NCBI GenBank assembly: GCA_023974075.1
Contig: CM043797.1
Coordinates: 62,001-126,000 of the forward strand
Length of the DNA stretch: 64,000 nt
Direction of reading: 5' to 3'
From: Chaenocephalus aceratus
Lineage: Eukaryota > Chordata > Actinopteri > Perciformes > Channichthyidae
Shown: one piece after another, positions 1-57,019 of the stretch
Layout: each line of letters opens with the position of its first letter
Numbering within the stretch: the stretch's first letter is position 1
Made by a program: the position numbers and the translations under genes
The notes under the pieces: generated by a model
Database searches by the model: none
What the model saw: the letters and a program-made list of their open reading frames with translations, nothing else
What the model was told of the DNA's origin: nothing

Positions 1-17
1 ACGCCTATCTGCGTGGG

Positions 18-365
18 TTGGCGGATTACATCAAAGATGAGCTTGTGTCGTTTGATTTGCCCAATTCACTGGATGGGTTGATTGAACTGACTTCCCGCAT
101 GGATCGGCGCATCCAGACAGGGAGACGGGAGCGACGATCGGCGGAAGTTCAACATGCCTGGGCGCCCCGACGTCCGAGTTTGGCTGCGACTCCTCACCTC
201 ACTCCAGAGCCGCAACCAGGGGGGGATGAGCCCATGCAGGTGGGTCGCACCAACCTCACTTTGGAGGAACGTGAGCATCGCAGACGTCGTAACCTGTGTC
301 TCTACTGCGGCCGGGCCGGCCATTTCGTTTCTCACTGCCCGGTAAAAGGCAAGGCTCAGCAGTAA
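18..365 (+). CDS. gag: Gag C-terminal part with CCHC zinc knuckle (partial)
   Basis: This is the end of the Gag capsid/nucleocapsid polyprotein, which packages element RNA in cytoplasmic particles. Near the C-terminus (about 299-342) a CX2CX4HX4C knuckle is visible (CLYCGRAGHFVSHC), preceded by an Arg-rich stretch. The frame is already open at the window edge, so the real start lies upstream; the first possible codon at position 18 is TTG and is not taken as a start. It stops with TAA at 363-365. The protease continues in another frame (-1 relative to Gag), as is usual when pol is made by frameshifting. Confidence 0.82.
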   Translation: MADYIKDELVSFDLPNSLDGLIELTSRMDRRIQTGRRERRSAEVQHAWAPRRPSLAATPHLTPEPQPGGDEPMQVGRTNLTLEEREHRRRRNLCLYCGRAGHFVSHCPVKGKAQQ

Positions 366-575
366 TGGGGAACATACTGGTGAGCCAAACCCCTGGATTT
401 GTTCCCACTCAGAGACCATTGAGCCACGCCAGGTTGCTATTGCCGGATAGCTCTCAGGCTCTTGCAGTTTTTATTGACTCTGGTTCGGACGCGAGTATTA
501 TGGATGAAGAGCTTATGCTGCAGTTGGGTATAGACCGGGTTCCTCCTATCTCGCCCAGTTCCAGCCAACGCCTTA
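366..575 (+). pseudogene. Gypsy aspartic protease segment
   Basis: The frame through about 368-570 carries FIDSGSDASIMD, the active-site signature of a retroviral-type aspartic protease (hydrophobic-hydrophobic-D-S/T-G). The following protease/RT linker ([12 protein letters not shown] onward) is read in the next frame, so one indel lies near 560-575. The intact protein would cleave Gag-Pol; this copy cannot make a continuous Pol. Confidence 0.75.
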
Positions 576-2240
576 GACGGTCACCTGCTGGGGACAGTGA
601 CTCATCAGACTGTACCCGTTCACATGCTCCTGTCTGGGAACCATCACGAGACTATTCAGTTTCATGTTCTCCGGTCTCCACATATCCCGCTTATCCTGGG
701 TTACCCATGGCTCCGCCGCCACAACCCTAACATTGACTGGGAGACGGGAGCCATTTTGGGATGGAGCCCCTCTTGTCATCAGATCTGTCTGAAACAGGCT
801 GCCGCGCCTCAACGCTCGGGGAACCCCAGCCAAGTTCTGGATGTTACAGGAGTTCCACCGGAATATCTGGACTTCAAGGAAGTATTCAGCAAGTCGAGGG
901 CTACTTCCCTACCACCACACCGGCCCTACGACTGTGCCATCGACCTGCATCCCGGCACCAGCCCTCCCAGGGGTCGATTGTACTCCCTGTCTGCTCCGGA
1001 AAGAGTTTCCATGGAGACTTATATCAATGACGCTCTGGCGGCTGGGATTATTCGCCCGTCCTCATCACCTGCTGGCGCAGGGTTCTTCTTTGTAGAGAAG
1101 AAAGACAAGACCCTAAGGCCCTGTATCGACTTTCGGGGTCTTATTGACATTACAATCAAGAATCGATACCCACTGCCTCTTATCTCTTCTGCATTTGAGT
1201 TGTTGCAGGGAGCAACCATATTCACGAAGCTGGACTTGCGTAACGCGTACCACTTGGTACGTATTCGCGAGGGGGATGAGTGGAAGACCGCCTTCAACAC
1301 CACCTCGGGGCACTACGAGTACCTCGTCATGCCTTTTGGGCTTACCAACGCCCCTGCAGTATTCCAGGCGTTGGTAAATGATGTGCTCCGAGACATGTTG
1401 GACCGACACGTGTTTGTTTACTTGGATGACATCCTGATCTTTTCCAAGACACTGAAAGAACACGTGCACCACGTCCAGGCGGTTCTCAGGAGATTACTCG
1501 AGAACTCGCTGTTTGTTAAAACGGAGAAGTGCGAGTTTCACACATCCTCTGTCTCTTTTCTGGGATACATCGTGGGACAAGGGAGCATCGAGATGGATCC
1601 TTCCAAGGTTGATGCAGTCACTTCCTGGCCGGTTCCAGATTCCCGGAAGCGGCTACAACAGTTCCTCGGGTTCGCCAACTTCTACCGGAGGTTCATTCGG
1701 GGATACAGTACCTTGGCCTCTCCTCTCACAGCCCTGACCTCCTCTAAGGTCATGTTCCAGTGGTCCTCCTCGGCTGAGGAGGCATTCCAGAACCTTAAGG
1801 CGAGGTTCACCTCCGGCCCCATCCTCCGAGTACCCGATCCTGTAAGACAGTTTGTTTTGGAGGTGGATGCTTCTGATATGGGGGTGGGAGCCATCCTGTC
1901 TCAGCGAGCAATGGACAGCCAAAAACTCCATCCCTGTGCTTTCTTTTCAAAGCGTTTGACTCCAGCGGAAAGGAATTATGATGTGGGAAACCGGGAGCTG
2001 CTAGCAGTGAAGTTGGCTCTGGAGGAGTGGCGTCACTGGCTCGAGGGGACCAGTCAACCTTTCCTGGTGTGGACCGACCACAAGAATTTGGAGTACATTC
2101 GGTCGGCCCGCAGACTGAATTCCCGACAGGCTAGATGGGCCCTTTTCTTCACTCGGTTCAATTTCTCCCTCTCCTACCGCCCTGGTTCTCGGAACATTAA
2201 GGCTGACGCTCTTTCTCGTCAGTTTGGAGAGGGAGGGTAA
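576..2240 (+). CDS. pol: Gypsy reverse transcriptase and RNase H (Pol fragment)
   Basis: Reverse transcriptase motifs are in order: the [11 protein letters not shown] block near 1220-1255, [13 protein letters not shown] near 1330-1370, and the catalytic YLDD box ([10 protein letters not shown]) near 1411-1440. An RNase H domain of Ty3 type follows, with [14 protein letters not shown] near 1857-1898 and [10 protein letters not shown] near 2071-2100. The frame ends at TAA 2238-2240, after which integrase continues in the same frame, so this is a nonsense break in Pol. Downstream codons read well, which suggests few lesions. Confidence 0.9.
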
Positions 2241-2249
2241 CATTCCCAG

Positions 2250-3671
2250 GGGCTTGGACACCATCCTTCCGACTTCTCAGCTCGTCGCCGCCCTCATCTG
2301 GGAGGTGGAGGAGAGGGTCAAGGCTGCCCAGCAGGACCAGTTCCGCAGACGTTGAGGTCTGATGTTCTCCAGTTGGCTCATAACTCCAGACTCACCTGCC
2401 ATCCTGGGATCCAACGCACATGGGAGGTAGTCCAGCAAAGGTTCTGGTGGGCAACACTTAAGGAGGACACCAGGGAATTTGTTAATGCCTGCCCCGTTTG
2501 CAATCAGAACAAGTCTTCTCACCAAGCTCCTGCTGGTCTCCTACGACCTCTGCCTATCCCTCATCGCCCCTGGTCTCACATTTCTTTGGACTTTGTTACT
2601 GGTCTGCCACCGTCCAACGGACACACTGCCATCTTGACGGTGGTAGACCGATTCAGTAAGATGGCTCATTTTGTGCCGATACCCAAGCTCCCCTCAGCTA
2701 AAGAGACGGCAGAGCTGGTCCTGCTCCATGTGTTCCGGCTCCATGGGCTGCCTACTGATGTGGTTTCCGATCGTGGTCCTCAATTTACCTCGGTGTTCTG
2801 GAGGGAATTCTGCACGCTCCTTGGGGCCACGGTCAGTCTGTCATCCGGTTTCCATCCGCAGTCCAACGGTCAGACAGAAAGAAAGAACCAGGAGATGGAG
2901 ACAACCTTACGATGTATAGTCTCCAAGAACCCAGCGGCCTGGGCTAAACAGCTGCTCTGGGTCGAGTACGCCCACAACACTCTGGTCAGTTCGGCCACCA
3001 AGCTGTCCCCATTTCAGTGTGCTTACGGGCTTCAACCCCCTCTGTTTCCGGCCCTGGAGAGGGAGGTTACCTGTCCGTCCGTCCAGGCTTTCATCCGTCG
3101 TTGTCGACAGACCTGGAATCAAGCCCGGAGAACTCTCGTCTGTTCGGCCAACCGGTACGCCTCCTCTGCCAACCGCCGACGTTCTGAAGCACCTGTCTAC
3201 CAGGTGGGCCAAAAGGTATGGCTTTCCTCCCGGGATATTCCTTTACGGGTGGATTCAAAGAAACTTGCACCTAAATTCATTGGACCGTTTGAGATTGTCA
3301 GAATAATCAATCCCGCAGCAGTAAGGCTAAGACTGCCTCGGACTCTGCGGATCCATCCCACCTTCCACGTTTCCAGGATCAAACCTGTCCGAGAGAGTGC
3401 CTTGGTTCCTGCGATCCCTCCCCCACCACCCCCCCGGATGATTGACGGCGGGCCTACGTACACTCTCCGACGACGTCTTCGTTCCCGTCGCAGAGGAAGA
3501 GGAGTCCAGTACCTGGTGGACTGGAAGGGTTACGGCCCTGAGGAGAGGTGTTGGGTTCCAGCTCGCCATGTGTTGGACCCCCGGCTCATCAGGGAGTTCC
3601 ATCGGCGTAATCCCGAGCAACCGTCTAAGACCGTCACGTTGACGGGCAGAGACACAGGGAGAGTCCAATAA
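2250..3671 (+). CDS. pol: Gypsy integrase with C-terminal chromodomain (Pol fragment)
   Basis: The N-terminal HHCC zinc module ([10 protein letters not shown] ... CPVCNQNK) spans about 2379-2513. The DDE core follows, with Asp in SLDFVTGLP, Asp in VVSDRGPQF and Glu in [15 protein letters not shown]-like module ([11 protein letters not shown]) is near 3274-3306, and a chromodomain ([17 protein letters not shown]) near 3510-3561. Chromodomains in this position bias insertion toward marked chromatin. There is no ATG at the left edge because the fragment is cut from Pol by the stop at 2238-2240. The stop TAA overlaps the AATAAA of the LTR. Confidence 0.9.
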
Positions 3672-3736
3672 AGGATATTACCAATTCTCCTTGGTTTCTC
3701 GAGTGCTGCATTTGGGTTCTCCTTAAGACTGTGACA
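3640..3736 (+). repeat. Remnant of Gypsy 3' LTR (R-U5-like end)
   Basis: An AATAAA signal lies at 3667-3672, and the segment ends TGTGACA, matching the CA end expected of an LTR. A normal LTR of several hundred bases is not present, so U3 seems deleted. The left limit is uncertain. Confidence 0.45.
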
Positions 3737-3825
3737 AAAACACAATAAAGAAAATCATTTTACAGTGTTTAAAAGAAAGAAACTTGTTTTTTCAACAAAC
3801 TTGAGTAGTATTAACCAAGGTTGTG

Positions 3826-3830
<5 letters not shown>

Positions 3831-3868
<38 letters not shown>

Positions 3869-3879
3869 ATTTATATATA
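3831..3879. repeat. (TA)n microsatellite
   Basis: An uninterrupted TA run of about 34 bases, followed by TGTGTATTTATATATA. Confidence 0.95.
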
Positions 3880-4479
3880 AAAATTCCATGAGGTGCATTG
3901 TTAAGTAGGAGGGGGTTACTACTGTGTTCTCTTGACTAGCTATCCTGGTACAGTGGGTATGAGAAGAGGTTGAAGTGGCAATAAAAGGTGTATTTAGAGT
4001 TGTTGTTTAGTGAAAAATGTTTACTCTGCTTTTATATATATTTTATAAATGTAACATTTATCAATGTACAGCATTACACTGCTTTAATTGCATACAGAGT
4101 TAGTTGGCTGAATGATTTCAAGACTGTAACGATTATCACAATTTTTGCGGACATCCAGATTCTCTGCAAATTCTGATTTCTGCTCAAAGTAAAGTATATT
4201 TGTACTGCTAGCGTACCAGAAAAATGACAGAGCACAGTAATCATGCTGACTGGATTAATGCACTCAACAGTCCTCTGTAATGGATACAGCAGGCCATCAG
4301 AAGTGGCCAGTCAAAATGACAAGAGCAGATCAGATTTTAAATGAAGAAAAACCAACATAACTTACATCATTGGTGAAACCAGAAACATATTACATGTATT
4401 AAATTGGATCCTTTTTGGGTTGTAACGGCACCCTTAAAAGGGTAAGCCCCTTGAAAATAAAGTAATGAATATGTGGAGT
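3880..4479. other. Mostly featureless AT-rich flank with a possible terminal exon
   Basis: No open coding region of useful size is present. On the minus strand, 4449-4367 could be the last exon of the SET/recombinase-like gene: it follows a TTTTCAAG acceptor, enters in phase 1 like all preceding small exons, and gives 26 codons then TGA. This is a weak call based only on phase and splice shape. Positions 4472-4479 (TGTGGAGT) are the left target duplication of the hAT element that follows. Confidence 0.3.
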
Positions 4480-5441
4480 TAGTGCTGCGTACCTGGACTC
4501 ACATTCAGGTTCAGGTCCGGACTCAAGTCCAGAGGTTCAGGTTCAGGTCCGGACTTATAAGTCCGGACCTGAACCCATGGCTTGTGTCAAGTTGTGTGAC
4601 TAAAGTGAACTTATTGTGAGCTAATTATCAATTGAACATTAACTCATAATCAACTCAAATTGAAACTCGTCAGGTTTATTGCGCTCCCTTCCAGCTTGTG
4701 TCTACATTTCTCTACAAAGTACAAATGTAAAAAAAAACACTTTTTGCCACTTAGTCTACAAATGACTACTGCAGTGAACTACTACAAAGTTCAAACATTT
4801 ATTTCATTTACCAAACTAAAGTAACCAAACAGCCCCTGAGCTGACTGAGCCTAAATCCCTAAAACGTTGCTGAAAGGTAGAGTGTAGTGTAGACTATATG
4901 CATTACACTGTTACACACCTACTATACATACACTGTAGTGACTGTACACCATGTATTTTCTACAACTCTACATGTGTACATTATACAGTACATACTATAC
5001 ATAGTGATGTACATACATACTGTTAGAAATTAAAATCAATGTTGATCTGGTGTAATTTTGAATTAAATACACTATTTAATTTAAATTAGTTTTATTCTGA
5101 AAAAACCGGAAGTTCACACTATTAACTTAATACTTTTATTCTGAAAATTCTTCACTTCCGGTTAGCATTAGCATGTGGCGAAATGCTACGTTTTCAAACC
5201 GTGAATCGAAGGTGAAATGATATGTGATGTTGTACACTGAGCACTGGGATTAGCACTCATTTATTGACGCTGAATAACGTTTATCAGGGAATGTTTAAAT
5301 AACCACAGACACCAGAATATACGTAGTGCTAGTTTTTTTGCAAGTCCAAGTACCGGTTCCCGACGTTCCGGTTTTAACCGGACTTGAACCGGAACTTTTT
5401 ACAAGTCCAGTCCCGGTTCTGCGTACCGGTACGCAGCACTA
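4480..5441. mobile_element. Non-autonomous hAT-type transposon, 962 bp, with embedded LTR piece
   Basis: It begins TAGTGCTGCGTACC and ends GGTACGCAGCACTA, perfect 14-bp terminal inverted repeats, flanked by the 8-bp direct repeat TGTGGAGT (4472-4479 and 5442-5449). Eight-base duplications and TIRs of this form are typical of hAT. Both subterminal regions contain clustered copies of AAGTCC/GGTCCGGAC in both orientations, as hAT transposase-binding regions often do. No transposase is encoded. Its middle (5021-5318) matches the first ~295 bp of the LTR at 35435-36012. It lies in the last introns of the minus-strand SET/recombinase-like gene. Confidence 0.88.
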
Positions 5442-5454
5442 TGTGGAGTCCTAC

Positions 5455-6835
5455 CTTTGGAGCTGGTGATCTCACCCTGGGTATCCAACTGATTTGTTTT
5501 TCCTAAAGTAAACCAGAAATGCTTTTATTAGAATAGCTTATACAGACTCAAATTTATTTGTGGGGAACTTAATTTTGAAAGCCAATTTATATTATTTAAA
5601 ATATATAAACAGAACAAAAGCTGTAACTGAACTGGACCCTGTAAAAAAAGAATCAATGTTGATGTAAAATAATAGTTTTTAGATAAGCTTATTCTTCTCT
5701 ATCAGTTTAGGTTTTTTTTTACGTGTTTACAATTATCAATGAGAACAAACTCTTAAAAAGTTGCTAAAAAACGTATTGGTTTACAGTCAGAATGTAACCC
5801 ACTGGCATCTCAATATACCTTCTGAACTCATGGCCTCTTCCTGGATCGGTTTCATCTTTTTTCTTTCTCCTAGGAAAAAAAGAAAAACTTAAACTTAACC
5901 TAGTTTAACTTTACTTTAGTGTCTGACCATTTAAAATCTGACGAGACAATAACATTTGTTCCGACTGCAGGCAAATCATCCAAAACCTGGGCCATTCACA
6001 CTGTTATTTGTATACGAGCAGATTGGATTTGTGTGCTCTGGCCTCTTTCAGCTATTTGTATTTCTTGCCTTGTTTGGTTTATGATAATTCCTGTTTTGTT
6101 TTTTTGATATATCTCTTGATATATATCTGTCAGAGATGTTTGTTTTGGTTGTTTACAAACAACCAAAACAAACATCTCTGACGGAGAAGGCTGCAGTTTA
6201 TCATTCATTCATTTTAATTTGTGCCACCATGGCATGTGTCATGTTAGAATTTTGAGCTGCCAGACTGTAAAAAGATGTTTCTAATGCAAATGGGGCTTGA
6301 ATCTCATTTCAAAAATAATATTCAATGCATATTTTCTTTGAAATCAATAATTAAAATGTTCCATGCACATTTACATTACCTTTGGCATGGTAGGCTTCAG
6401 GCACAGTCGAATCCGCGTTTTTTCTTTTTCCTAATAAAAAAACAATCTTGAAATATACTACATATATCAACATGACAATTCACATATTTTAAGTTTCTTG
6501 GCATGAAAAATAAACAGATTTAGCAGAGCCAACTTTAACAGCTAATGCAACAGCCTATACTAAATACTACAATATTATTTGTATTGATAGCTGGAGGGGA
6601 ACATCTGTAGTTAAACTGGTCTCTTTAGTAATGTATTTTATCCAAGAAACATTGTAGTAGTAACATAACAAACAGAAATGGTAACATGTTTTTTTATCAA
6701 CCAATATAGGCACATATGTAACCTATATGTATGCCCCCAACACAGTGCAATAACAAAAAGACAATCTAAGGCCCTTCCACACATTACCTTCAGAGTTGGA
6801 GGACACTTCATCAGGACTCTTTATTCCTCGCATTT
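5455..6835 (-). CDS. Four small phase-1 exons of the C-terminal tail (48, 51, 51, 48 bp)
   Basis: Exons 6788-6835, 6380-6430, 5819-5869 and 5455-5502 each have AG/GT borders, lengths divisible by three, and begin and end in phase 1. They read EMRGIKSPDEVSSNSE, GKRKNADSTVPEAYHAK, GERKKMKPIQEEAMSSE and GKTNQLDTQGEITSSK. Three begin with a split Gly and the first three place a basic or acidic patch near the same spot, so they may be old copies of one exon. Any of them can be skipped without a frameshift. Confidence 0.65.
6129..6182. repeat. Perfect 26-bp inverted repeat with 2-base loop
   Basis: Arms 6129-6154 and 6157-6182 are exact reverse complements separated by AC. It lies in the intron between the exons at 6380-6430 and 5819-5869. 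A transcript would form a 26-bp hairpin. No terminal duplications are visible. Confidence 0.9.
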
Positions 6836-7250
6836 CTGGTGAAAATAATTATAAAACAGGCAAGCTTTAGATGGTAGAGACAGTAACTGAGTCTACAGAT
6901 TTAATGGAGGACAATTTCAAAGATTTTTTTCTCTGTTTGACCACAAGTAAAAAGTAACCCTGGCTTATATGATTGCAATTAGATTTTAAACTTTACCACA
7001 CCATATGACCTACTCCAGGAGACCTAATTTTGGTAACTGTTGTGCCTTTTTAAGGCGATTACTGTACACTTTGTTTCATGTCTGAAGAGTAATGTGCTAG
7101 AAATGTCACTGATTTTGTGGTGCCAATTAAGCAACAAGATGGCTCCACAGTGTGCAGCCTTTAATTGCTAGATATTGTCCTATAAAAAAGGTACTCCCCC
7201 AAATCTGTACCATTACACATATTCTAAGAAAGAACATCTGTGTTACATAC

Positions 7251-7391
7251 CCCTTACTCCATGTGCAGGATCTGGCTCTTCATTGTCTCCATCTTTTTCC
7301 TCATCTCCATCATGTTCCATGTCTCCATCATCTTCATCGTCTCCATCAATGTTTCCCCCCTGAAATTCTTCCAGATCTGGTTCCAACTCAT
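7251..7391 (-). CDS. Acidic tail exon, phase 1-1
   Basis: 141 bp between acceptor TTTTTCAG and donor GTATGT. The peptide is almost entirely Asp, Glu, Gly and His after DELEPDLEEFQGG, so it looks like a disordered acidic region. Phase 1 in and out, in step with the exons downstream. Confidence 0.7.
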
Positions 7392-7647
7392 CTGAAAAAC
7401 ACAAATCAATATATTTATGTATAATTTACCTAAGTTAATTTGTCCAATTTTCATTTCCCATCCTTTTAGTCAATTTCCTCTTGTGTAGTTATATTTTGTA
7501 TTAATGTTGTTGTAGAAATAATCTTGTTTCTGTAATGCACTTTGTAAATGTATTTGAAGATATCTATTGAAAAGCCTTTGTATTATCATTATTATCATTT
7601 TAATAATATTATCATAAGTAATAATAATACATAAATTGAGCACATAC

Positions 7648-9716
7648 CTTCAATCTCAATCTCGTCAAGAGATTTTCCTTGATATGCAGCCAAAGATCCT
7701 TTCTCCATCGCCAGTAGAATCTTTGAGATTTTTGCAATCTCAATAGTTGCCTCTGGCAGTCGATAAAAGTCTCGATGGACCCGTATGTCATGGCCTAAGA
7801 AGTTGGCTAGTTGGTCTACCTCATTGTTCTTAAGGTTAAGAATCTGGGACAATGTTACAACATGCTTGCGAAGTTGTGTAGACCTGAGATACTGCGGATT
7901 TTTTGCACCACACTGACGTGCAAAAAGCCTGATGCAGTCCTGTCCCCTGTAGAAGCTGGTGGAGGGGCACTGTGATCTTCCAAATAGGAAAGGGTTGTCC
8001 TTGTGCACATTACACAAGTCTCTTTTGTCAGCAAGGAGTGTTGTTGCACTGACAACTTCAGGGTTTAACAAAATGGCAACTTTCCTTCCTCTTTTGCCCA
8101 TTATTTCCACCCTACTGAAATGCTTGGCCAGCTTTTGCTCGAATGGCGAGAGGCTAACAGCAATGTCCTCATGAAGCTCAGTCTGGTCTCTTTTCATGAA
8201 TGCTTCAAGTGTCATTTTTGAGACCTCTCCTGCACGGCGCCTGTTGAAGATAATTATTTGAGCTAGTGTAACTTTGGCTAGTTCTGCATAACTCTGTGAA
8301 GTCTCGTTCTTTTGAAGGTTCTCCATAGCAGTAGCTGATTTCTTCTCCAGGTACTGGTGGAGGAGCTGCACATCCTTTGTAAAAGGTATTGTACACGGTC
8401 TGTTAAACTTAGACTTGCTCAAAGTTGCAAGAGCAGTGTGGGAGATAAGTTCATTCCATTCTTTAGTGCACAGTTGTGTGAAACGCTCTGATGCTTTGAT
8501 CATCGATTCATCTTCTGCAGCAATGGCTCTACATAGAATAATACTGCCAATCTTCTTGAGTGAATGTCCTAATTTCAGAGCCAGACTTGGTATGAGGTAG
8601 CAGTGCTTCTCTTCATGGTAACCAGCGACATCTCTGACTGCCTCAATAACTTTGTAAAAGTTGTTTGGTTTTACAGCATCTTCAAAACTGAATAAGGAAC
8701 ATTTGCTTCTCAAGCTCATTAAGAGCCTGCCCATTTCACGGACTTTGTCTGATATATTCGAATTTTGTAGGATCACTACCATGTTTATTGTAGAGTGACT
8801 GAGCCAGTTGCAGTATGAGGAAATCATTCCGTGAAACTGATGTCACTTCATCTTGCTTCATATTTCCAAGGATCTTCCATAAACCAGGAGAAATTGCTTG
8901 GGAGAAAGTTGACTCAGCCAGAACTAGGACTTTGGCCCTACCAGTTGCTTCAGTGTCTGAGACGGTCTTTGAAGGACATCTACGCACGTGGCGCCAAAGT
9001 TATTTGCGGACAAACATGCCTTTACAATATACACAGCGCACATATTTGTTGGCATCCAGTGAGACATTTGATTTTCGTGGTCTTCGTTTTAGTTTCAGTG
9101 GTCCGCTTTGATTCTGCATTGTCTCTTGATTATGATGGTAATTACCTTTGCTTCGCAGCTTTTCAAGTAACCTTTTTCTCTCTTTAGAGTGTTTAGGGAA
9201 CATAAATGCTTCAGCAATTTCAGGTTGTTCTTTATCATGCTTCTTAAAGTGACGAGCAATCTTAGATTGAGGTTTATTGCAAACATAACAGTAATTGTTG
9301 AGGGTGCAAGAAGAGTCTTTGGGGTTTGCAACACTCTCAATTGTCGCCCTCTCAGAGTAATGAGACTCTGTTACAGCTGTTGTCAGATTCTGAGGATTGC
9401 TTGTGGTAGGTTCATTATCAGAACTGGATGCCATATCAGGGATGAAATGTTCATGAAGTTGGAATTTGTCAGAGGTAGTAGCAACCGTGTCTTGCTGTTC
9501 AACACAGTTCTTTGTAGAGACAGTTGGTGCAGTCTTACAATGGGGTGGCTTTGAATCCCTGATGGTGGCAATTAGATGATCCCAATCAGTATTTGCTTCT
9601 GAGTCAGGAGGGCAGTCTTCATCGGCGCTGGATCCATCGCTGCTAGACGCAGTTTCAGGAATGTAGTCTTTATCACTGACGGAACCTTCATTACTAGAAA
9701 GGCAGATGTCCTTCAT
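7648..9716 (-). pseudogene. Large exon: acidic linker, two zinc fingers and tyrosine-recombinase-like domain
   Basis: It starts at a TTTAAG acceptor before ATG 9716 and ends at donor GTATGT (7642-7647). An Asp/Ser/Glu-rich linker holds two related stretches (DYIPETASSSDG and HFIPDMASSSDN). Fingers: CYVCNKPQSKIARHFKKH and CVYCKGMFVRK-stop-LWRH. The C-terminal half has the recombinase layout: box I FNRRRAGEVSKM (about 8215-8255), a Lys in MGKRGRKV (about 8080-8105), box II TQLRKH (about 7860-7890), LGHD (about 7790-7803) and Tyr in RDFYRLPE (about 7755-7777). The first His of HxxR is Thr. Lesions: TAA at 9000-9002 in the second finger, and a frameshift near 8745 between EYIRQ and KVREMGRLL. Each flank resumes the expected protein. 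Confidence 0.8.
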
Positions 9717-9800
9717 CTTAAAAAAAAAAGAAAGGAACACCAAGTTTATATTTTTTCATTATCCAAAGAAATCAGATATTTATATAAACACATTACGTAC

Positions 9801-10164
9801 CGGTGAGTCGTTGTTCTTGATGAAGCAGGTTTTGTGCCATGAGGTTGAACATACTAAAAACACAATTACACAAGAAAAATGTACTGGTAACATTTCTTGA
9901 GCATTATTTTTACATTTAATCACTGTGCATTTCACTATATAACAAATAAGAAAGTAAGTCATTTAGAATCTAAGTTAAGTATTTGAAATTAAGTTTTTTT
10001 TATCGAAATGTTTATCATCTCAGAGTAAAAAATAAAACGGTGTTGTTTGACAGGTACTTACATTTACACGTAAAACCAATCCATTTCAGGCTTGAGACAG
10101 GTCCTGTGCAATCATGACAATTGTCCAAAGAGGAAATAACTGCACTGGTGAGTACATGATGACA
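9801..10164 (-). CDS. Two exons encoding a PHD-like cysteine cluster
   Basis: Exon 10062-10164 (acceptor ATCCACAG, donor GTAAGT) and exon 9801-9853 (acceptor TTTTTAG, donor GTACGT) join in phase 1. Together they give CHH ... NCHDC, then KWIGFTCKLC and STSWHKTCF, i.e. CX2C-X12-CX2C-X4-H-X2-C. This is the spacing of the first six ligands of a PHD finger; the last CX2C pair is not obvious. PHD fingers usually read histone tails, which would suit a SET protein, but the incomplete ligand set leaves a simpler zinc ribbon possible. Confidence 0.65.
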
Positions 10165-11108
10165 CTGTGGATAAAAAATTGAACATAAACAAAATAAATA
10201 TATATGTTATTTTAAGTGTGTTTGAGTGTGAAAATGTGACTCAGATACATTTAGGACATAATCCTTATGACAAGGAAAAATAATAAGGTTAGTCTGCTTG
10301 GACACCTTATTTTATATAAAAAACATATTGTACTCATCATTTTGAAAATCTCTTAGCATCTGACTTAGAGCAGTTGCAGTAGTATTGAAAGTATGTCCTG
10401 CCTAAATTGTGTATCTTAGGTCAAGGCGTCATCAACGCTAACAAGCTGACAGATATCCAACTAGCCATATATGTGACAAGGATTCCTCCCTTTAACAGTG
10501 TGTGAAAAAACAATGGTGAGAGTATTGTGAAGTACAACTTGCCATTTTGGTTGGTGGGGAGGACGGAGGATCTCTCTCGGGCTCAGGGTTACAAGCTACT
10601 TCACAGGGAGCCTGAAATTGTAGCACAAAACTAAGACACTGTTGTCACCTTGGTAGTGGTTTGATCTGACTTGTGTGCTGCAAAGGTTTATCAGTTATGG
10701 AGGTGTGCACATGCTGGACGAAGGCAATGATCTAATGTCTAGTCATGTCAACAGGTTGTAAATCATCTGTCCTTACAAGGACTGCTGTCCCTACAAGACA
10801 CCCTGTAACCAGACGGCCTTTATCTTTCTGTGTAGAATGACATTATACAAAAACCTTTCAATGTTGTCATTTTTAACTCCTGTTAAAATCATCTGTCCTT
10901 ACAAGGACTGCTGTCCCTACAAGACACCCTGTGACCAGACGGCCATTTTCTTTCTGTGTATAACATTTAACCCGTTTCAATTTGACCCAAAGTATGGGGA
11001 AACGGAGCCCCCTACCAAGACGATAGTCCTGGTAAAACAGCTTCAATCTATACCGGTCAGCGACGCGCAACGTGCCAATGTGTGGAAAAACAATGCATTG
11101 AAACTCAC

Positions 11109-11180
11109 CATCTTGTCCCCTGATGTGTTAGCAGTTGTACGATGTTCGGTCGCAGCCTCTTGTGTCCCACCACATACTTC
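11109..11180 (-). CDS. Small 24-codon exon, copy 1 of a duplicated exon
   Basis: 72 bp, phase 0 on both sides, acceptor TTTACAG, donor GTGAGT (the other copy has GTAAGT). Same peptide as 12351-12422 except Gln for Arg at the seventh residue. Function not recognised. Confidence 0.65.
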
Positions 11181-12350
11181 CTGTAAATAAGTGAAAGATA
11201 GGCACGACATTAAAACATTATCGACTCATTTCCATTCATCTATCAATGGGACACAAATCTGAACATTAACACGACTTTATTCAATTCATTAGCCAGCAAT
11301 GAAAATAAAGACATTATTAGCCCCATATAACATGTTAGGGCCTAAAAGCAATTGATCACAGAGCAATAATTGATAAAAATCTACTAACACATTGACTGTT
11401 GGCATGCTATGTGTGCAGCAGCCATCAGCATATCTCATCCAAGGAAGAAAGCTGATGAGCACAGTAGGACTGTAATGTTAACTATATTACAAGTTGGCAT
11501 CCTCATTTTGTTTCATGAATGCCATGGTAGCGCTGCTCCTCTGTTCCAAATACGACTTCTCCTAACTCTTACTCTGAGCATTTATCTTTTGATGGTGCAG
11601 TAAATAACAGTCTACAAACTATGGCTTAAATAATATAGAGACGCATATGTTTCAGTTTCTGGAATGTGACTAATCTTTCACAGCATTAAGAAAAGTACAA
11701 TACTGTCACAGGCCCAGTGTACATGTATTGTTTCCCTCTACAGCCAGACACAGAAAGTGATTGTGATATGAAGTACAACTTGCCATTTTGGTTGGTGGGG
11801 AGGACGGAGGATCTCTCTCGGGCTCAGGGTTACAAGCTACTTCACAGGGAGCCTGAAATTGTAGCACAAAAAAAAGACACCGTTGTCACCTTGGTAGTGG
11901 TTTGATCCGACTTGTGTGCTGCAAAGGTTTATCAGTTATGGAGGTGTGCACATGCTGGACGAAGGCAATGATCTAATGTCTAGTCATGTCAACAGGTTGT
12001 AAATCATCTGTCCTTACAAGGACTGCTGTCCCTACAAGACACCCTGTAACCAGACGGCCTTTATCTTTCTGTGTAGAATGACATTATACAAAAACCTTTC
12101 AATGTTGTCATTTTTAACTCCTGTTAAAATCACCTGTCCTTACAAGGACTGCTGTCCCTACAAGACACCCTGTGACCAGACGGCCATTTTCTTTCTGTGT
12201 ATAACATTTAACCCGTTTCCATTTGACCCAAAGTATGGGGAAACGGAGCCCCCTACCAAGACGATAGTCCTGGTAAAACAGCTTCAATCTATACCGGTCA
12301 GCGACGCGCAACGTGCCAATGTGTGGAAAAAACAATGCATTGAAACTTAC

Positions 12351-12422
12351 CATCTTGTCCCCTGATGTGTTAGCAGTTGTACGATGTTCGGTCGCAGCCT
12401 CTCGTGTCCCACCACATACTTC
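12351..12422 (-). CDS. Small 24-codon exon, copy 2 of a duplicated exon
   Basis: 72 bp, phase 0 on both sides, acceptor TTTACAG, donor GTAAGT. It starts EVCGGTREAATE and ends TSGDKM; no known domain. It is nearly identical to 11109-11180 (one residue differs, R/Q) because both lie inside a 1.24-kb-spaced tandem duplication. Either or both can be spliced in without shifting the frame. Confidence 0.65.
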
Positions 12423-12619
12423 CTGTAAATAAGTGAAAGATATTATTGACTCTTTTGTTATTAATCAGGTGAAATTCAGAAAATAATGTTAACACAGTAC
12501 ACATTTTTTACTGAAATAAATCAAATCTGCTTAACTGAGCTGAGTCGTAGTACCATGGAGAAAAATGCAAACTATTTCCCTGTCAGTTAAGCAATGCCCT
12601 AAAGAGAACATAACCTCAC

Positions 12620-12812
12620 CTTTAAGCGCCAGGGCCAAGCAGAATCCCCATAGTTGTACGTTATCTCCTCCTCAGGGAATATTTCCTTTACAGAATATAG
12701 GCACAAGTGTGGGGTTCCTTTGACAATGATTTTTTTCACTCTGCAGTTTGGATTCCTGTGATTATCATTTGCAAGACGTCCAAGTGTTCCATCCTCTTTT
12801 GAAGCATTAATG
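12620..12812 (-). CDS. SET domain exon 2 (catalytic core: NPNC and YNYGD)
   Basis: A 193-bp exon; acceptor TTGTCTTGCAG, donor GTGAGG. It contains INASKEDGTLGRLAN, NHRNPNC (matching the NHxxxPNC SAM/active-site motif) and EEEITYNYGD (matching the catalytic Tyr motif). In known SET enzymes these bind S-adenosylmethionine and position the target lysine. All core motifs are present, so this part could be active if expressed. The exon ends in phase 0 after PWRLK. Confidence 0.9.
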
Positions 12813-12957
12813 CTGCAAGACAAATACAACATCATGTATCAACTTCATGTATCATGACAGAAAAGCACTGAATTCATACAAGAAGTCACTAGGAAACTAC
12901 ATACATCTGATAATGGTCAAATATCCATTTGAGGTAATCAACAAGCAGCAAACTCAC

Positions 12958-13099
12958 CAAAAGTGCATTCCAGACCAGTTGAAATCGAATAAGAAGATGT
13001 TATTTTTGACATCTAGATCTTCACTTACACCCAATATTCCACGGTACTCCACCACAAAAGTTGACGGTGCAATATATTCCCGTGTAAAAACACCACGTC
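12958..13099 (-). CDS. SET domain exon 1 (GRGVF ... FVVEYRG)
   Basis: A 142-bp exon between acceptor CTATTGTAG and donor GTGAGT. It reads GRGVFTREYI and FVVEYRG, the SAM-pocket entry and first conserved strand of SET proteins, then NIFLFDFNWSGMHF. The last codon is split (TG|C, Cys) and joins CINASKEDG in the next exon, equivalent to CIDAT in SET8-like enzymes. Confidence 0.88.
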
Positions 13100-13331
13100 C
13101 TACAATAGCAAAAAAAAATGCATTAACATTTACCTATACCCAATTATTTGTAAATATTTGCCATGAGTGTGTTAGATGCCTAACACTGTTATCCACACAA
13201 GCTTCATCCAAGTTAGCCTCTGACATGTAAAGTGCATTTCAGGTAAATAGCGGAGTAAAATTGTTTGATCAGCACGCACTCCTTTCTGCAATGAAGCTCC
13301 ACAGTGATATGCACAAGGTGTTGGTTAACAG

Positions 13332-13381
13332 TACTTTGAAACGCTTAACATAGTGATACTTTGAAACGCTTAACATAGTGA
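13332..13381. repeat. Tandem 25-bp duplication
   Basis: TACTTTGAAACGCTTAACAT plus AGTGA occurs twice in exact tandem (13332-13356, 13357-13381), within intron 1 of the SET gene. Confidence 0.9.
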
Positions 13382-13592
13382 TGCCAACACTGCTAGGGTT
13401 GAGGGTAGCTGTGATTTGACTATATCCAGGGGTGAGTTCACGATGAGATCACGATTATTTACTGGTATGAAGTGACACATTATTTTATATTGCATTTCAT
13501 TTAAATGTAAATAAACAGAGCACTGCTTTAATCAGCATGTTCTGTCTAATGTTCAGATCAGATGTTGCAACATATTAGAAAATACTTGTTAA

Positions 13593-14540
13593 TAGGGATG
13601 CACGATAATTATCGGCCCGATAATTATCGGTCCGATATTAGGAATTATGACGTCATCCCGATAAACCCGATACCAGTATTAATAGCCCCGATAATATACA
13701 ATATATTTTTTGGGTAAAAAAAAAGAAAAAAATACTGCGGTGTGGGTGGATTGGGATGAGGGGCGCTTGTTTTTCACTCGGCTCCTCCCGTTTTGCCAGT
13801 ACTGTGGTATTAGTGGTTTAGGAAGAGGGGAGTTCTTCACAAATCCAGCGCTCCCTAATACTTCTAACCTGATCAGTCACCTGAAACATCGCCATCGCTA
13901 CGATGGTGTGTTAAAAGCGTACAAAGACAATAATACAATACAAAGTGTGTGTGTGTGTGTCTGCGCGCGCGCGTTGGAGCTATGTGCAACTCAAGGCATA
14001 TGCTCGAACCGGAGCTGCCTGGACGCTGCAATCATGTTGCGGAGTGTGCTGACTTTTCCTACAATGTCCCACTGTCTGGCTTCCTGCATCAAGTCAAGTG
14101 CTCGGCGCAGTTGTGGCGAAATGTCGCTCCTCTGTTTTCATTTAAACAGCTCCGTATATCCGTTAGCGCAGCTAGCTAGCACCAGATGCTAACAACAACA
14201 ATGCACGTAAGGTCTCTCTCTCGCTCGCTCGGACCACACAAACACACACCCTCCCGCTCCTCCAGATGGCCAGTCGGTGCCTGCCGGTGAGCGTGGAAGT
14301 GTGGTCTGCCACAAGCGGGCGGCAGGAGCGGGGCTGTCAGCATCAGCTTGTAGATGGTATTTTAAACTCGATGCGCTCTGAAACTACGGGGCGGCCAAGG
14401 TAAAAAAATACACATGCGTTAATCACGTTAAAATAATTAGTGGCGTAATTTTGTTTTTTTATTATCGGTTATCGGTATCGGTCTTGAGAAGCAGGAAGTT
14501 ATCGGTATCGGTTTCAAAAAACCAATATCGTGCATCCCTA
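13593..14540. mobile_element. Non-autonomous hAT transposon with BED-finger remnant, 948 bp
   Basis: Ends TAGGGATGCACGATA and TATCGTGCATCCCTA are perfect inverted repeats. The flanking 8-bp duplication CTTGTTAA is exact (13585-13592 and 14541-14548). Many ATCGG/CCGAT subterminal repeats lie at both ends. The plus strand at about 13710-13920 encodes CQYCGISGLG and TSNLISHLKHRHR, the C-C-H-H pattern of a BED zinc finger that forms the N-terminus of hAT transposases; the catalytic part is missing. It includes a short (GT)n at about 13945. It is inserted in intron 1 of the SET gene. Confidence 0.92.
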
Positions 14541-14773
14541 CTTGTTAAGCAATAGTACTTTGTTCATATACAAAATAAAATGTTAAAGTTAAATGTACCA
14601 TTATTGTGCACTGTCATAATTAAGAAGCTAAATTGAGAGGATAGACAATGTTGTGCTATCATAAGTTCTGTTGTACACATTTGATTTCAATAAATGATCA
14701 TATGCATGGTTAAAAAGGCTTCATGATATAATAATAAGGGCCGGGTAGTTTGCTAACCCTGCCAAACAACCCT

Positions 14774-14813
14774 GGCACTGAGGAGAGGCTCTGTGAAGCC
14801 TCTCCTCAGTGCC
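14774..14813. repeat. Perfect 17-bp hairpin
   Basis: Arms 14774-14790 and 14797-14813 are exact reverse complements around the loop CTGTGA. It lies in intron 1 of the SET gene. The adjacent minus-strand frame 14753-14950 is open but not recognised. Confidence 0.85.
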
Positions 14814-15119
14814 CTGGGGTGCATGGAGCAGACACCTTCACCATGGCTCCCCAAAAGTGTAGTCAAAGCATCTCTAAACTCAGCGGGTGTCAGGCAGTTT
14901 AGGACACAATTGATGTGGTATACAGTGTTGTTTTTCAATGAGAAGGGCACACATTTACATATTACATATCCTGAAAACGTACATTGTTGAAAATATGTGA
15001 GGCTGATGACCTAAGAGCAATGGCTAAAAGGTCAGGGTTCCCTGTGTGCCCAGTTTGACCATATTAATGGAACAATGCTATACGGTCTTTGATACTACAT
15101 ACTGTATGAGATAGCTTAC

Positions 15120-15233
15120 CTTTAAATGTGTTGATAAACCTGGCCTCTAGGAAGGGTTTGTCTCTGCCCAGAATTATATGGTCTATTGCATCCTGTTCAG
15201 GAGTCTTTCTCCTGCTCCTTTGTGTCATCCTTG
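15120..15233 (-). CDS. Exon with start codon: N-terminus leading into SET domain
   Basis: Acceptor TTTTTTTAG before 15233, ATG at 15226-15228, donor GTAAGC at 15114-15119. It encodes a basic start (MTQRSRRKTPEQD) and then EARFINTFK; the split Gly codon completes KGRGVF with the next exon, the classic entry of a SET domain. The ATG is the first in the exon, in frame and near the acceptor, which supports it as the start. Confidence 0.8.
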
Positions 15234-32003: not shown

Positions 32004-32393
32004 TTAAAGGTGACATGTCATGCTTTTCCGGTTATCACCCGTCCCCTTGTGTTATGAAGGTTTTTATGCATGTGAACGGTGTGCAGAGTCAAAACCCTCA
32101 AAGTACACCCTGTAGCGAGTAAAACTCTGACACAGAGAAGACCTCCCCAAAACGCCTCGTTGGTGAAACGTCATCATCCATTTGATTCTTCAGGACGTCA
32201 TGTTGTAACCGGAACGAAATGGACCAATCCGTGGAGCCGTTACGTTAAGTCCGCGGAGCCGTTACGTTAAGCCCCCGCTGATTGGTCCAAATTGACCAAT
32301 CCACGGACTTCCTCACACACACACGCAGCTCAGCTGAGTCTGTCTCCTCCGGGCTGCTGCTGATAACAGACAGTTGGGATCGCGGCGAAATTC
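32004..32393. mobile_element. Left end of a nested TTAA-type element
   Basis: It begins TTAAAGGTGACATGTCATGC and continues with a non-coding body containing two copies of GGAGCCGTTACGTTAAG (about 32235 and 32258). The right end is not found; the minisatellite begins where the body should continue. Confidence 0.45.
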
Positions 32394-33976
32394 TCTCTCA
32401 GACCCATCCTCTCTGCAGACCCATCCTCTCTCAGACCCATCCTCTCTCAGACCCATCCTCTCTCAGACCCATCCTCTCTGCAGACCCATCCTCTCTCAGA
32501 CCCATCCTCTCTCAGACCCATCCTCTCTCAGACCCATCCTCTCTGCAGACCCATCCTCTCTCAGACCCATCCTCTATGCAGACCCATCCTCTATGCAGAC
32601 CCATCCTCTCTCAGACCCATCCTCTCTCAGACCATCCTCTCTCTCAGACCCATCCTCTCTGCAGACCCATCCTCTCTCAGACCCATCCTCTCTCAGACCC
32701 ATCCTCTCTGCAGACCCATCCTCTATGCAGACCCATCCTCTCTGCAGACCCATCCTCTCTCAGACCCATCCTCTCTCTCAGACCCATCCTCTCTCAGACC
32801 CATCCTCTCTCAGACCCATCCTCTCTCAGACCCATCCTCTCTGCAGACCCATCCTCTCTCAGACCCATCCTCTCTCAGACCCATCCTCTCTCAGACCCAT
32901 CCTCTCTGCAGACCCATCCTCTCTCAGACCCATCCTCTCTACAGACCCATCCCTCTCGAACCCATCCTCTCTCAGACCCATCCTCCTCAGACCTCCTCTC
33001 TGCAGACCCACCTCCTCCCACCTCTCTGCAGACCCATCCTCTCTCAGACCACTCCTCAGACCCATCCTCTCAACCCCCTCCCAGACCCATCCTCGCAGCC
33101 CATCCTCTCTGCAGACCCATCCTCTCTCAGACCCATCCTCTCTCAGACCCATCCTCTCTCAGACCCATCCTCTCTCAGACCCATCCTCTCTCAGACCCCC
33201 CTCTCAGACCCATCCTCCTCAGACCCATCCTCTCTCAGACCCATCCTCTCTGCAGACCCATCCTCTCTCAGACCCATCCTCTCTCAGACCCATCCGCTCT
33301 GCAGACCCATCCGCTCTCAGACCCATCCTCTCTCAAACCCAGCCTCTGCTGACCCATCCTCGCTCAGACCCACCTCTCTCAGACCCATCCTCTCTCAGAC
33401 CCATCTCTCTCAGACCCATCCTCTCTCAGACCCATCCTCTCTCAGACCCATCCTCTCTCAGACCCATCCTCTCCGCCCATCCCTCTCGACCCATCCTCCT
33501 CAGACCCATCCCTCTGCAGACCCATCCTCTCTGCGACCCATCCTCTCTCAGACCCATCCTCTCTCAGACCCATCCTCTCTGCAGACCCATCCTCTCTGCA
33601 GACCCATCCTCTCTCAGACCCATCCTCTCTGCAGACCCATCCTCTCTGCAGACCCATCCTCCTCAGACCCCATCCTCTCTCAGACCCCTCTCTGCAGACC
33701 CATCCTCTCTCAGACCCATCCTCCTCTCAGACCATCCTCTCTGCAGACCCATCCTCTCTCAGACCCATCCTCTCTCAGACCCATCCCTCTGCAGACCCAT
33801 CCTCTCTCAGACCCATCCTCTCAGACCCTCCTCTCTCGACCCATCCTCTCTCAGACCATCCTCTCTGCAGACCCATCCTCTCTCAGACCCATCCTCTCGC
33901 AGACCCATCCTCCTCTCAGACCCATCCTCTCTCAGACCCACCTCTCTGCAGACCCATCCCTCTGCAGACCCATCCT
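32394..33976. repeat. 16/17-bp minisatellite, ~95 units
   Basis: Units are CAGACCCATCCTCTCT and a 17-base version with an extra G (GCAGACCCATCCTCTCT). Many units toward the right are shortened by single-base losses. The absence of stop triplets in several frames creates long spurious open frames. Confidence 0.97.
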
Positions 33977-33989
33977 CTGGTGGTGATGA

Positions 33990-35250
33990 CACGCCGGAAC
34001 ATTCCCACCGAGATGAGAGGATGCCAAACGCACATTCAACACCAACCTGGCCCGGCTGAGGCGGTAATTGAACAGCCTCCTTTCGCGTGTGAGGTGACGT
34101 CCAGGGAACGGACGCAGCAGGTTTGTCCAGCAACGGAAAAGCCTCATCTCCAACCAACATGGGGGAGAAGGCCGAGCCGCTCTGCTCCTATGAGGGTGTC
34201 AGGTGGGAGCTGCAGACTGCCATCTCGGAGGCTCTCTCCAAAAGCGGAATTCCTCAGGCTCCCCACCGTCGCTCTGCCTCTTCCAAACCTCCGACATCCA
34301 CTAACCCTGAATAACTGGGCGTCCACTACCCTGAAGAGGTACTGGGCTCACTACACCTGAAAGGTACTGGGCATCCACTACCCTGAAGAGTACTGGGCAT
34401 CCACGACAGCCAGCAGTACCAAGGATAGGTGGACTTGTAGTTTGAAGTTAGAGGGACCCAATTTGCCGGAGCCTGGATCACCACGTGCTTCCCATCAATG
34501 GCACCAACGCATTAAAACTTCCAGCGCTCCTTGAACCCAGCAGCGATGGCTCTCCAGTCCCTCCGTCTGTGGTACCGGCATGGTCTCCTCGACCAGCGCG
34601 GTCCAGATGGCACCCCCACCTCCTTCACGATGACAGCCACTGTTGCATGCCCGACCCGATATAGCTGAATGCTATGGTCCTGTACGGTTGCCAGGTACCT
34701 GAGAAAAAAGTAATATACATGATTTAAAAAAAAAAAAGTCATACCCGACACGCAGATACAGATCCCTCCCCCCCTCACACACCCCACACATACCAGACAC
34801 ACCACACCACATACACACACAGGGGAGCATACTGTGTTTTTACCTAGCTATCTTAATTAATGTCATTCATCTGAACTAAATCACAGACTTCATTCATCCA
34901 TTGCATGCATTCTCTCTCTTTATATACAGATCATATTAAAGAATAGAAATACACAAAACGTACCGTAGGCATGGCGAGTCGCTCGGCTCCGATATACAAA
35001 CGCATATTGTCTGCCTTTGAATCAGTGGACCCACTTTTCCGATCAGGCTCGTCGAACACGTCTTTGCTCATCGGCTTAAGTACTGCCTAAACAGTACATC
35101 ATGCCAGGCGAGCTCTTGGACAAGAACGTGGTACCCCCGTTGCAGACGTTTCTGAGTATCAGCTGTACCCAACAGCGACGCACAATACGTGCCTCCTCCT
35201 CGAGACATTACATAAACCAACGCTACCCTTGCTACAAAACCGGCATCCAT
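33990..35250 (-). pseudogene. HARBI1-type transposase of the Harbinger element, fragmented
   Basis: The N-terminal exon starts at ATG 35248-35250 (MDAGFVARV) and runs to about 34975 with an early TAA after FRQYLSR. The next piece (34700-34510) has RYLATVQDHS and DWRAIAAGFKERWKF. The first catalytic Asp is in GAIDGKHVVIQAP (about 34505-34455). The C-terminal part (34320-33990) has FGESLRDGSLQLPPD, VGDEAFPL, PGRHLTRERRLFNYRLSRAR and AFGILSSRW, matching the DDE_Tnp_4 end with the catalytic Asp/Glu region. Several frameshifts separate these, and the segment between 34430 and 34330 is replaced by short ACTGGGC repeats. Confidence 0.8.
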
Positions 35251-51627: not shown

Positions 51628-51686
51628 TTAGGGTTAGGGTTAGGGTTAGGGTTAGGGTTAGGGTTAGGGTTAGGGTTAGGGTTAGG
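51628..51686. repeat. Interstitial telomeric repeat (TTAGGG)9 plus TTAGG
   Basis: Nine perfect hexamers (51628-51681) and a partial one sit exactly between the satellite and the 3' end of a Penelope-like element. The G-rich strand is the plus strand, so the original chromosome end, if this was one, faced right. Confidence 0.97.
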
Positions 51687-51770
51687 CGTTAGACATGTTT
51701 GAATCCTGTCACCGTAAAACGGCAGCAGGATCGAATGCACTCTCCATCTTTGTCAGACATGCAGGCATGT

Positions 51771-56850: not shown

Positions 56851-57019
56851 CATCCCGACACAGTGATTATGCAGGACCATCAGAGAGAGTGCACACACCA
56901 CATACATGGTAACAAGAGGAACTGGCTGTGTTAGGCGTTAGACATGTTTGAATCCTGTCACCGTAAAACGGCAGCAGGATCGAATGCACTCTCCATCTTT
57001 GTCAGACATGCAGGCATGT

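Follow-up and report, generated by a model that had tools for sequence, protein, structure and literature searches.

A broken copy of a putative SET–tyrosine recombinase gene from a multi-copy teleost family in Chaenocephalus aceratus

The stretch of DNA analysed here (the window, 64,000 nucleotides of Chaenocephalus aceratus contig CM043797.1) carries a single, broken member of a gene family that occurs in many copies across the teleosts and probably encodes one chimeric protein. The family chimera would begin with a SET domain and a linker built of tandem exons. A C1-like zinc cluster follows in some clades, and then come the fingers, a tyrosine recombinase (YR), an acidic tail and a Myb-like C-terminus. 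Annotated proteins, domain distances, fold prediction and the conservation of catalytic residues all support the joining of SET to a YR fold within a multi-copy fish family. Among the papers listed in a search of the open-access literature, the family is named in no title or opening part of an abstract.

The gene lies on the minus strand, from 15228 to 5455, and comprises 13 exons whose phases agree throughout, as the initial annotation had proposed; their ends follow the GT-AG rule. The encoded order is a KMT5A/SETD8-like SET domain, a C1-like zinc cluster, a pair of fingers, the YR and an acidic tail. The finger pair, described earlier as C2H2-like, consists of one C2H2 and one C2HC finger. 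The exons are as follows:

15120..15228, minus strand: exon 1, ATG and N-terminal flank of SET (MTQRSRRKTPEQ...); GT donor and phase, 71% identity to P0121 residues 1-38
12958..13099, minus strand: exon 2, first half of SET (GRGVF, VVEYRG); AG/GT ends and phase, P0121 tblastn
12620..12812, minus strand: exon 3, second half of SET (GRLANDNHRNPNC, EEITYNYGD, WPWR); splice sites and phase, 82% identity to P0121
12351..12422, minus strand: exon 4, 72-nt linker exon of phase 0-0 (24 aa), an array copy inside the repeat copy 11769-12442
11109..11180, minus strand: exon 5, second copy of the 24-aa linker exon, differing from exon 4 at 1 of 72 nt
10062..10164, minus strand: exon 6, first part of the C1-like zinc cluster (HX12CX2CX13C...); splice sites and phase, P0121 tblastn
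9801..9853, minus strand: exon 7, second part of the C1-like cluster (CX2CX4HX2C); splice sites and phase, P0121 tblastn
7648..9716, minus strand: exon 8, C2H2 and C2HC fingers and tyrosine recombinase, broken here; splice sites and phase, alignments, predicted model
7251..7391, minus strand: exon 9, acidic tail; splice sites and phase
6788..6835, minus strand: exon 10, tail mini-exon of 48 nt, phase 1-1
6380..6430, minus strand: exon 11, tail mini-exon of 51 nt, phase 1-1 (GKRK...); similar units seen by eye in the P0121 and P0009 tails
5819..5869, minus strand: exon 12, tail mini-exon of 51 nt, phase 1-1
5455..5502, minus strand: exon 13, tail mini-exon of 48 nt, phase 1-1 (...GEITSSK, where P0121 has GEVTSSK)

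The joined model of exons 1-8 is 69% identical to Pungitius protein LOC134132279 (P0121) with 100% of the model covered, a match that, judged from the alignment, is far above chance. Together with the fused annotated proteins, it bears out the chimera running from SET to recombinase that had been proposed for this locus. A tblastn search of the window with P0121 recovers exons 1-3 and 6-8 at their modelled positions and returns nothing for exons 4-5 and 9-13, the support of which consists of splice sites, phase and by-eye resemblance. No exon beyond exon 13 is detected in the window, and a search of positions 1-5454 for the Myb-like C-terminal exon of the relatives does not find it (106 queries, best E 0.022). 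A Gypsy element occupies 293-3671 on the strand opposite to the SET-recombinase gene. Rfam and tRNA scans of the whole window are empty.

The window copy is broken, because exon 8 (7648-9716) carries both a stop codon and a change of frame:

9000..9002, minus strand: in-frame TAA of exon 8, within the C2HC finger
8685..8842, minus strand: exon 8 stretch with the reading-frame change (near 8770)

Across this exon, the P0121 tblastn alignment requires two frames, which overlap at 8755-8685. A description of the gene as thirteen open exons is thus rejected on account of the two lesions.

The SET domain of the window matches PF00856 (E 2.5e-16). Its nearest SET group is KMT5A, with an identity of ~31% to KMT5A/SETD8. 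The SET motifs had been called complete: they are present, but the word is too strong, as ND takes the place of the NH cofactor motif, both in this gene and in 44 of the 45 relatives with a letter at that site. Methylation may have been lost in the SET-recombinase protein because of this ND motif. The domain differs from the H4K20 methyltransferase KMT5A/SETD8 in this substitution, in its low identity and in its domain partners.

The zinc cluster exhibits the spacing HX12CX2CX13CX2CX4HX2C. The C1 signature is HX12CX2CX13-14CX2CX4HX2CX7C, and the window cluster fits it except for the last Cys. Pfam C1_1 (PF00130) matches 14 of 42 relatives (best E 2.2e-5; the 10 individually printed matches lie below the cut-off of 26.5), and precomputed domain annotation assigns PF00130 to the family protein P0152. 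No PHD family is found among the 17 Pfam families listed at E 0.01 for the same 42 relatives. Comparison of the cluster gives weak matches, to a segment of the PHD protein Cph1 (E 0.2) and to PKC C1 domains (E 0.76-0.93). The cluster, restricted to some clades of the family, seems to fit C1 better than PHD, and we set aside its earlier assignment as PHD-like, which the spacing and the Pfam matches do not support.

The recombinase core lies in a single open frame within exon 8:

7649..8842, minus strand: open frame with the recombinase core, residues R201, K250, R325, H351 and Y360 in the frame's own numbering; alignments and predicted model

The R-K-R-H-Y order noticed initially is present in the window, and the five residues are 97-100% conserved in an alignment of 101 sequences, made of the window and 100 of 116 representatives, the other 16, some of them divergent, having been left out by the analyst. 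The nucleophilic Tyr occurs in 101/101 rows and the R/K/R/H residues in 97-98%, while Thr replaces the first His of the HxxR box in 97/101. The predicted model supports the catalytic-domain fold of the tyrosine recombinase superfamily. A structure search identifies XerH as its best match, with Foldseek TM-scores of ~0.3, and its pLDDT falls below 50 over residues 334-362, around H351 and Y360. The fold check proposed for the 7648-9716 exon came out in favour of a recombinase by structure, with Pfam PF00589 remaining below its curated cut-off (best 20.2 bits, for P0156, vs 27.1). PF00589 reaches E 0.01 or better in 4 of 42 members and gives no match for the window's own piece. NCBIfam yields no match to family members, and PHROGs one weak match, for one of 10 members. 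A profile of the 101-row alignment searched against the PDB gives solely SET chains among the 60 matches listed, because several rows include SET. The fish YR shares with XerH/XerD recombinases the fold and the order of the five residues, and its H-to-Y spacing of 9 is that of XerD. It departs from them by the Thr in place of the HxxR His and by its fusion to eukaryotic chromatin and zinc domains.

Between SET and the zinc cluster, the linker is encoded by a tandem array, of which the window holds two copies:

11769..12442, unstranded: direct repeat copy 2, containing exon 4
10528..11200, unstranded: direct repeat copy 1, containing exon 5

The repeats are identical in 665 of 674 alignment columns, and exons 4 and 5 are copies from a recent duplication. 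Both this array and the damage to the copy were overlooked by the initial annotation. A tandem array occupies the linker position in 56 of 92 fused relatives, its units being mostly uniform inside one protein and different between species. The fish genes resemble PRDM9 in having a SET-type domain followed by a tandem array, homogeneous inside a gene and quick to diverge between species. They differ in that the units are not zinc fingers (a C2H2 pattern was seen by eye in none of 56 array units, which sets them apart from a PRDM9-like array) and in the recombinase domain downstream. The array region of P0121 is modelled with low confidence (pLDDT 28-35). The inverted repeats within array units are short and imperfect, and provide no evidence for a recombination site. 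It is very doubtful that the family is a self-remodelling, still mobile lineage that has lasted since old teleost times, with its own chromatin writer and hypervariable exon array, and that its YR would act on its own locus, expanding, shrinking and homogenising the array. The linker array, with its position conserved and its content replaced, is a ready case for the concerted evolution of exons.

Fused SET-YR models are found in 55 labelled taxa from five fish groups, and SET precedes YR in 92 of 93 fused chains. All 129 labelled records (80 labels) are teleost among the matches listed, namely the best 120 of 653 and the best 120 of 150. Two further alignments, of 54 and 42 rows, were hand-picked from 227 sequences and contain mostly complete models. 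Four species have near-identical long copies on contigs that differ in length. In two of these species the copies extend from SET to YR, and in the other two they cover long parts; they could be segmental duplications or assembly haplotypes. Sparus aurata (LOC115568284 and LOC115594830) and Misgurnus are among the fish with near-identical copies. Three Acnodon models, from contigs of one length and with near gene numbers, suit a tandem duplication. In the clade of the gene tree that was tested, higher fish groups cohere far beyond chance, Percomorpha requiring 5 changes vs a shuffled mean of 18.0. One cyprinid row, P0022, shares 93% identity with Siniperca along 288 residues; its horizontal transfer is unsupported, as the test does not reject a tree in which the acanthomorph rows stay together (AU p 0.245). 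A SET or C1 pattern occurs in none of 68 short-contig ORFs, in a search with length limits that excluded most long ORFs, and at least one of these ORFs, P0142, appears to run into the intron preceding exon 8. On both grounds, the short-contig ORFs are rejected as transcripts and taken as genomic. The 42 pattern matches in viral contigs include no relative.

According to passages of PMC3212892, Cryptons and Crypton-derived genes (KCTD1, KIAA1958, ZMYM2-4, QRICH1, WOC) also place a tyrosine recombinase in animal nuclear genes, the vertebrate derivatives having lost catalytic residues and all DUF3504 genes the tyrosine and second arginine. The same passages describe Crypton ends as hard to define and other transposons as possible insertions inside copies, and the terms “SET domain” and “methyltransferase” are absent from the main text of that paper. 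The fish YR differs from the Crypton-derived genes in possessing a full catalytic set and in being joined to SET and C1-like domains. The earlier label “Crypton-like” is not established: DUF3504 (PF12012) is missing from the Pfam listing of 42 members (17 families at E 0.01), a silent HMM leaving room for kinship to CryptonA. Neither the gene pieces nor the families of this listing include a reverse transcriptase or DDE domain. SETMAR is a fusion of SET with a mariner (DDE) transposase, confined to anthropoid primates, and its SET structure, 3bo5, is among the PDB matches of the window SET. Both systems join a histone methyltransferase domain to a mobile-element enzyme, the fish partner being a tyrosine recombinase and the fish fusion being old and multi-copy in teleosts.

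Of the two origins offered initially, a mobile gene that acquired SET agrees slightly better with the data than an inactive, domesticated recombinase does, given the retained catalytic residues and the near-identical long copies on contigs unequal in length. We tentatively favour, at slightly less than an even chance, a mobile gene driven by its own YR, with a Crypton-like lifestyle, that acquired a KMT5A-type SET in or before early teleosts and is still spreading. Its starting points are the gene anatomy, the annotated chimeras, both folds in predicted models, the conservation of the five residues and the near-identical copies, from which we infer catalysis, mobility, the histone substrate and the order of events. 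After the capture of SET by the YR gene, inheritance would have been mostly vertical, as several old lineages, and present spread within genomes would involve whole DNA units, exons and introns together. The fingers and the recombinase would recognise a DNA site, where Y360, with R201, K250, R325 and H351, would cut and rejoin strands via a covalent 3'-phosphotyrosyl link. Strand exchange would excise and reinsert the gene, and SET might methylate a histone where the gene leaves or where it lands, opening a site or hiding the new copy. Against mobility, 13 exons over 10 kb are unusual for a DNA transposon, and host genes would likewise give a vertical-like tree and no supported transfer. The Acnodon trio, the lack of SET and C1 patterns in the short-contig ORFs, the low pLDDT near H351 and Y360, the TM-scores and the ND motif appear as further weak points.

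The main rival to the mobile gene is a host gene family. It is possible, at well below even chances, that early ray-finned fish domesticated an old recombinase, which became fused to SET and spread by tandem and segmental duplication, a course that the mostly vertical tree in the clade tested, the retained SET-then-YR order, the Acnodon trio and the retained catalytic residues would all suit. The near-identical copies of four species, the decay of the window copy and the lack of a known host role speak against it. Its role in the host would then call for DNA strand exchange or nicking at specific sites, with SET marking the same site, which is conceivable to the same limited degree. SET kept beside YR would also suit a chromatin factor in which, SETMAR-like, the five residues hold DNA and SET does the work, and passages of PMC3212892 describe Crypton-derived vertebrate genes functioning without a catalytic site. 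Such a non-cutting protein is rather unlikely, as the invariant Tyr and nearly invariant R/K/R/H residues are unlike the DUF3504 genes described there. Finally, gene predictors may have merged two adjacent genes: an ATG opens exon 8, and the short-contig ORFs lack SET and C1 patterns. This is most improbable, given the four coding exons in agreeing phase between both domains, the C1 exons and linker arrays that are sensible only in a joined frame, and the fused models across five fish groups.

With all five residues retained together with SET, a large fish family would offer vertebrate genomes a candidate for an active site-specific recombinase, and possibly a source of tools. It would also be a natural test of the cooperation between a mobile enzyme and a chromatin writer.

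The gene on the minus strand comprises 13 exons running from 15228 to 5455, with GT-AG borders and consistent phases, organised as follows.

Exons of the SET-recombinase gene
Exons 1-3, minus strand: SET domain (PF00856, E 2.5e-16)
Exons 4-5, minus strand: 24-residue linker exon, present twice
Exons 6-7, minus strand: zinc cluster
Exon 8, minus strand: two fingers and recombinase
Exon 9, minus strand: acidic tail
Exons 10-13, minus strand: four mini-exons of 48-51 nt

Exons 1-3 and 6-8 were recovered at matching positions by tblastn with the Pungitius protein P0121 (P numbers designate fetched relatives); exons 4-5 and 9-13 were called from their splice sites and phase and from visual resemblance. 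The PF00856 match to exons 1-3 confirms the SET domain of the initial annotation. Its thirteen linked exons agree in ends and phases, but exon 8 harbors an in-frame TAA (9000-9002) and a frame shift near 8770, so the copy as sequenced is broken. In relatives the gene ends with a Myb-like exon, for which 106 C-terminal queries found no counterpart within positions 1-5454 (best E 0.022). A Gypsy-type retroelement (293-3671), carrying reverse transcriptase, integrase and a chromodomain, might occupy the place where that exon would be expected. The tail mini-exons at 5455-6835 measure 48, 51, 51 and 48 nt and are all of phase 1-1. The 16-17-residue units that they encode resemble one another; about two such units are visible by eye in P0121 and in P0009 of Halichoeres, and the mini-exons are possibly a second, older exon array. 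Intron 1 contains a hAT-like insertion (13593-14540) with inverted ends TAGGGATGCACGAT / ATCGTGCATCCCTA, flanked on either side by the 8-bp target repeat CTTGTTAA and containing, by eye, a BED-like zinc-finger reading frame. Elsewhere, two minus-strand Penelope-like units (RT and GIY-YIG; 51681-54435 and 56930-59684), spaced 5,249 bp and exactly identical over 2,755 bp, either were duplicated very recently or are an assembly repeat, and in a long minisatellite (32282-34360) HPLSDPSSLRPILSQT-like words recur in three reading frames.

The recombinase frame retrieved 653 proteins (best 120 listed) and the joined exon 1-8 model 150 (best 120 listed), the top match of the latter being Pungitius LOC134132279 (69% over 100%). 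Profiles built from the family itself and run on 227 fetched proteins detected the tyrosine recombinase (YR) in 226 and SET in 94; 93 have both domains, with SET N-terminal in 92 of them, which bears out the proposed fusion. The labelled fused proteins carry 55 fish labels (genus or species), by our own assignment 31 percomorph, 19 ostariophysan, 2 elopomorph, 2 osteoglossomorph and 1 gadiform, in line with the multi-copy fish proteins mentioned in the initial annotation. SET and YR distances correlate (Mantel r 0.66, n 51, 0/5000 permutations), and both trees agree on the main clades of type I, to which the window copy belongs. Within type I, the percomorphs Channa and Siganus cluster with ostariophysans in both trees, which may reflect either old paralogues or transfer. 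Outside it, some rows (P0155/P0157, P0182, P0185) appear to shift between the trees, in branches that carry no support values.

The zinc cluster had been called PHD-like. Its spacing agrees with the C1 signature, bar the last Cys, and a Pfam C1_1 match was obtained for 14 of 42 relatives; as a single query, the window cluster places a segment of the PHD protein Cph1 slightly ahead of PKC C1 domains, but every match is insignificant. A pattern search did not find the cluster in members of other clades. MamL-1, the Mastermind N-terminal domain, is matched in 2 of the 42, some members devoid of the cluster having it instead. Among clades without the C1-like cluster, MamL-1 matches occur in P0196, P0207, P0209-P0218 and P0221, and a stretch resembling it by eye in P0188-P0194, in either case between linker and fingers.

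The linker exons belong to window repeats (10528-11200 and 11769-12442) that include the intron and are identical in 665 of 674 columns. One 72-nt phase 0-0 exon lies in each repeat, and a single base separates the two exons. Tandem arrays are found in the linker of 56 of 92 fused relatives (a count that takes in several isoforms and sister copies as well as a single Ser-rich, low-complexity case), with about 2 to 13 units of 18-97 residues and a within-protein likeness of 0.81-1.00. Across 139 protein pairs with SET identity of 60-95%, median identity is 65% for SET, 75% for YR and 21% for array units, and for 92 of these pairs 10% or more of 30 shuffles reach the real array-unit score. Judged from these comparisons, array position is conserved and content is not, a pattern that unequal exchange of repeated DNA explains without calling on the recombinase. 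Each array unit contains two occurrences of a 78-nt element at 126-nt spacing (10760-10963 and 12001-12204), with the imperfect inverted repeat CATCTGTCCTT / AAGGACTGCTG.

We lean tentatively towards a mobile gene because the five catalytic residues are conserved, a decayed copy exists, and Misgurnus, Sparus, Metynnis and Simochromis have near-identical long models whose contigs differ in length (4 of 27 species having at least two typed records; 63 pairs compared). According to the motif table, the Sparus and Metynnis models span SET through YR. Of the shorter models, that of Misgurnus (P0140) ends within the catalytic domain and that of Simochromis (P0183) has no SET. The contigs of a fifth near-identical pair, from Triplophysa, are of equal length. 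Misgurnus also has four entries that differ in LOC number yet are near copies of one another, the YR of P0130 being 95-97% identical to that of P0124, P0126 or P0131. Against mobility stand clades that track fish groups in the tested part of the gene tree, three Acnodon models on contigs of one length, horizontal transfer that is not supported, and the lack of any visible element ends. A non-mobile host gene family, the main rival and somewhat less likely, would suit the first two, but it fits poorly with the near-identical long models on different-length contigs in four species.

SETMAR joins SET to an enzyme of a different class, whereas the partner in the fish family is a tyrosine recombinase. 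Crypton-derived vertebrate genes, according to PMC3212892, have lost the catalytic tyrosine, whereas the five catalytic residues of the fish family are conserved. Most named members among the matches listed are annotated as ‘uncharacterized’, with a SET domain, and a limited literature search found no description of the family. For these reasons, we call it an apparently undescribed variant of the chimeras that combine a mobile-element enzyme with a chromatin enzyme.
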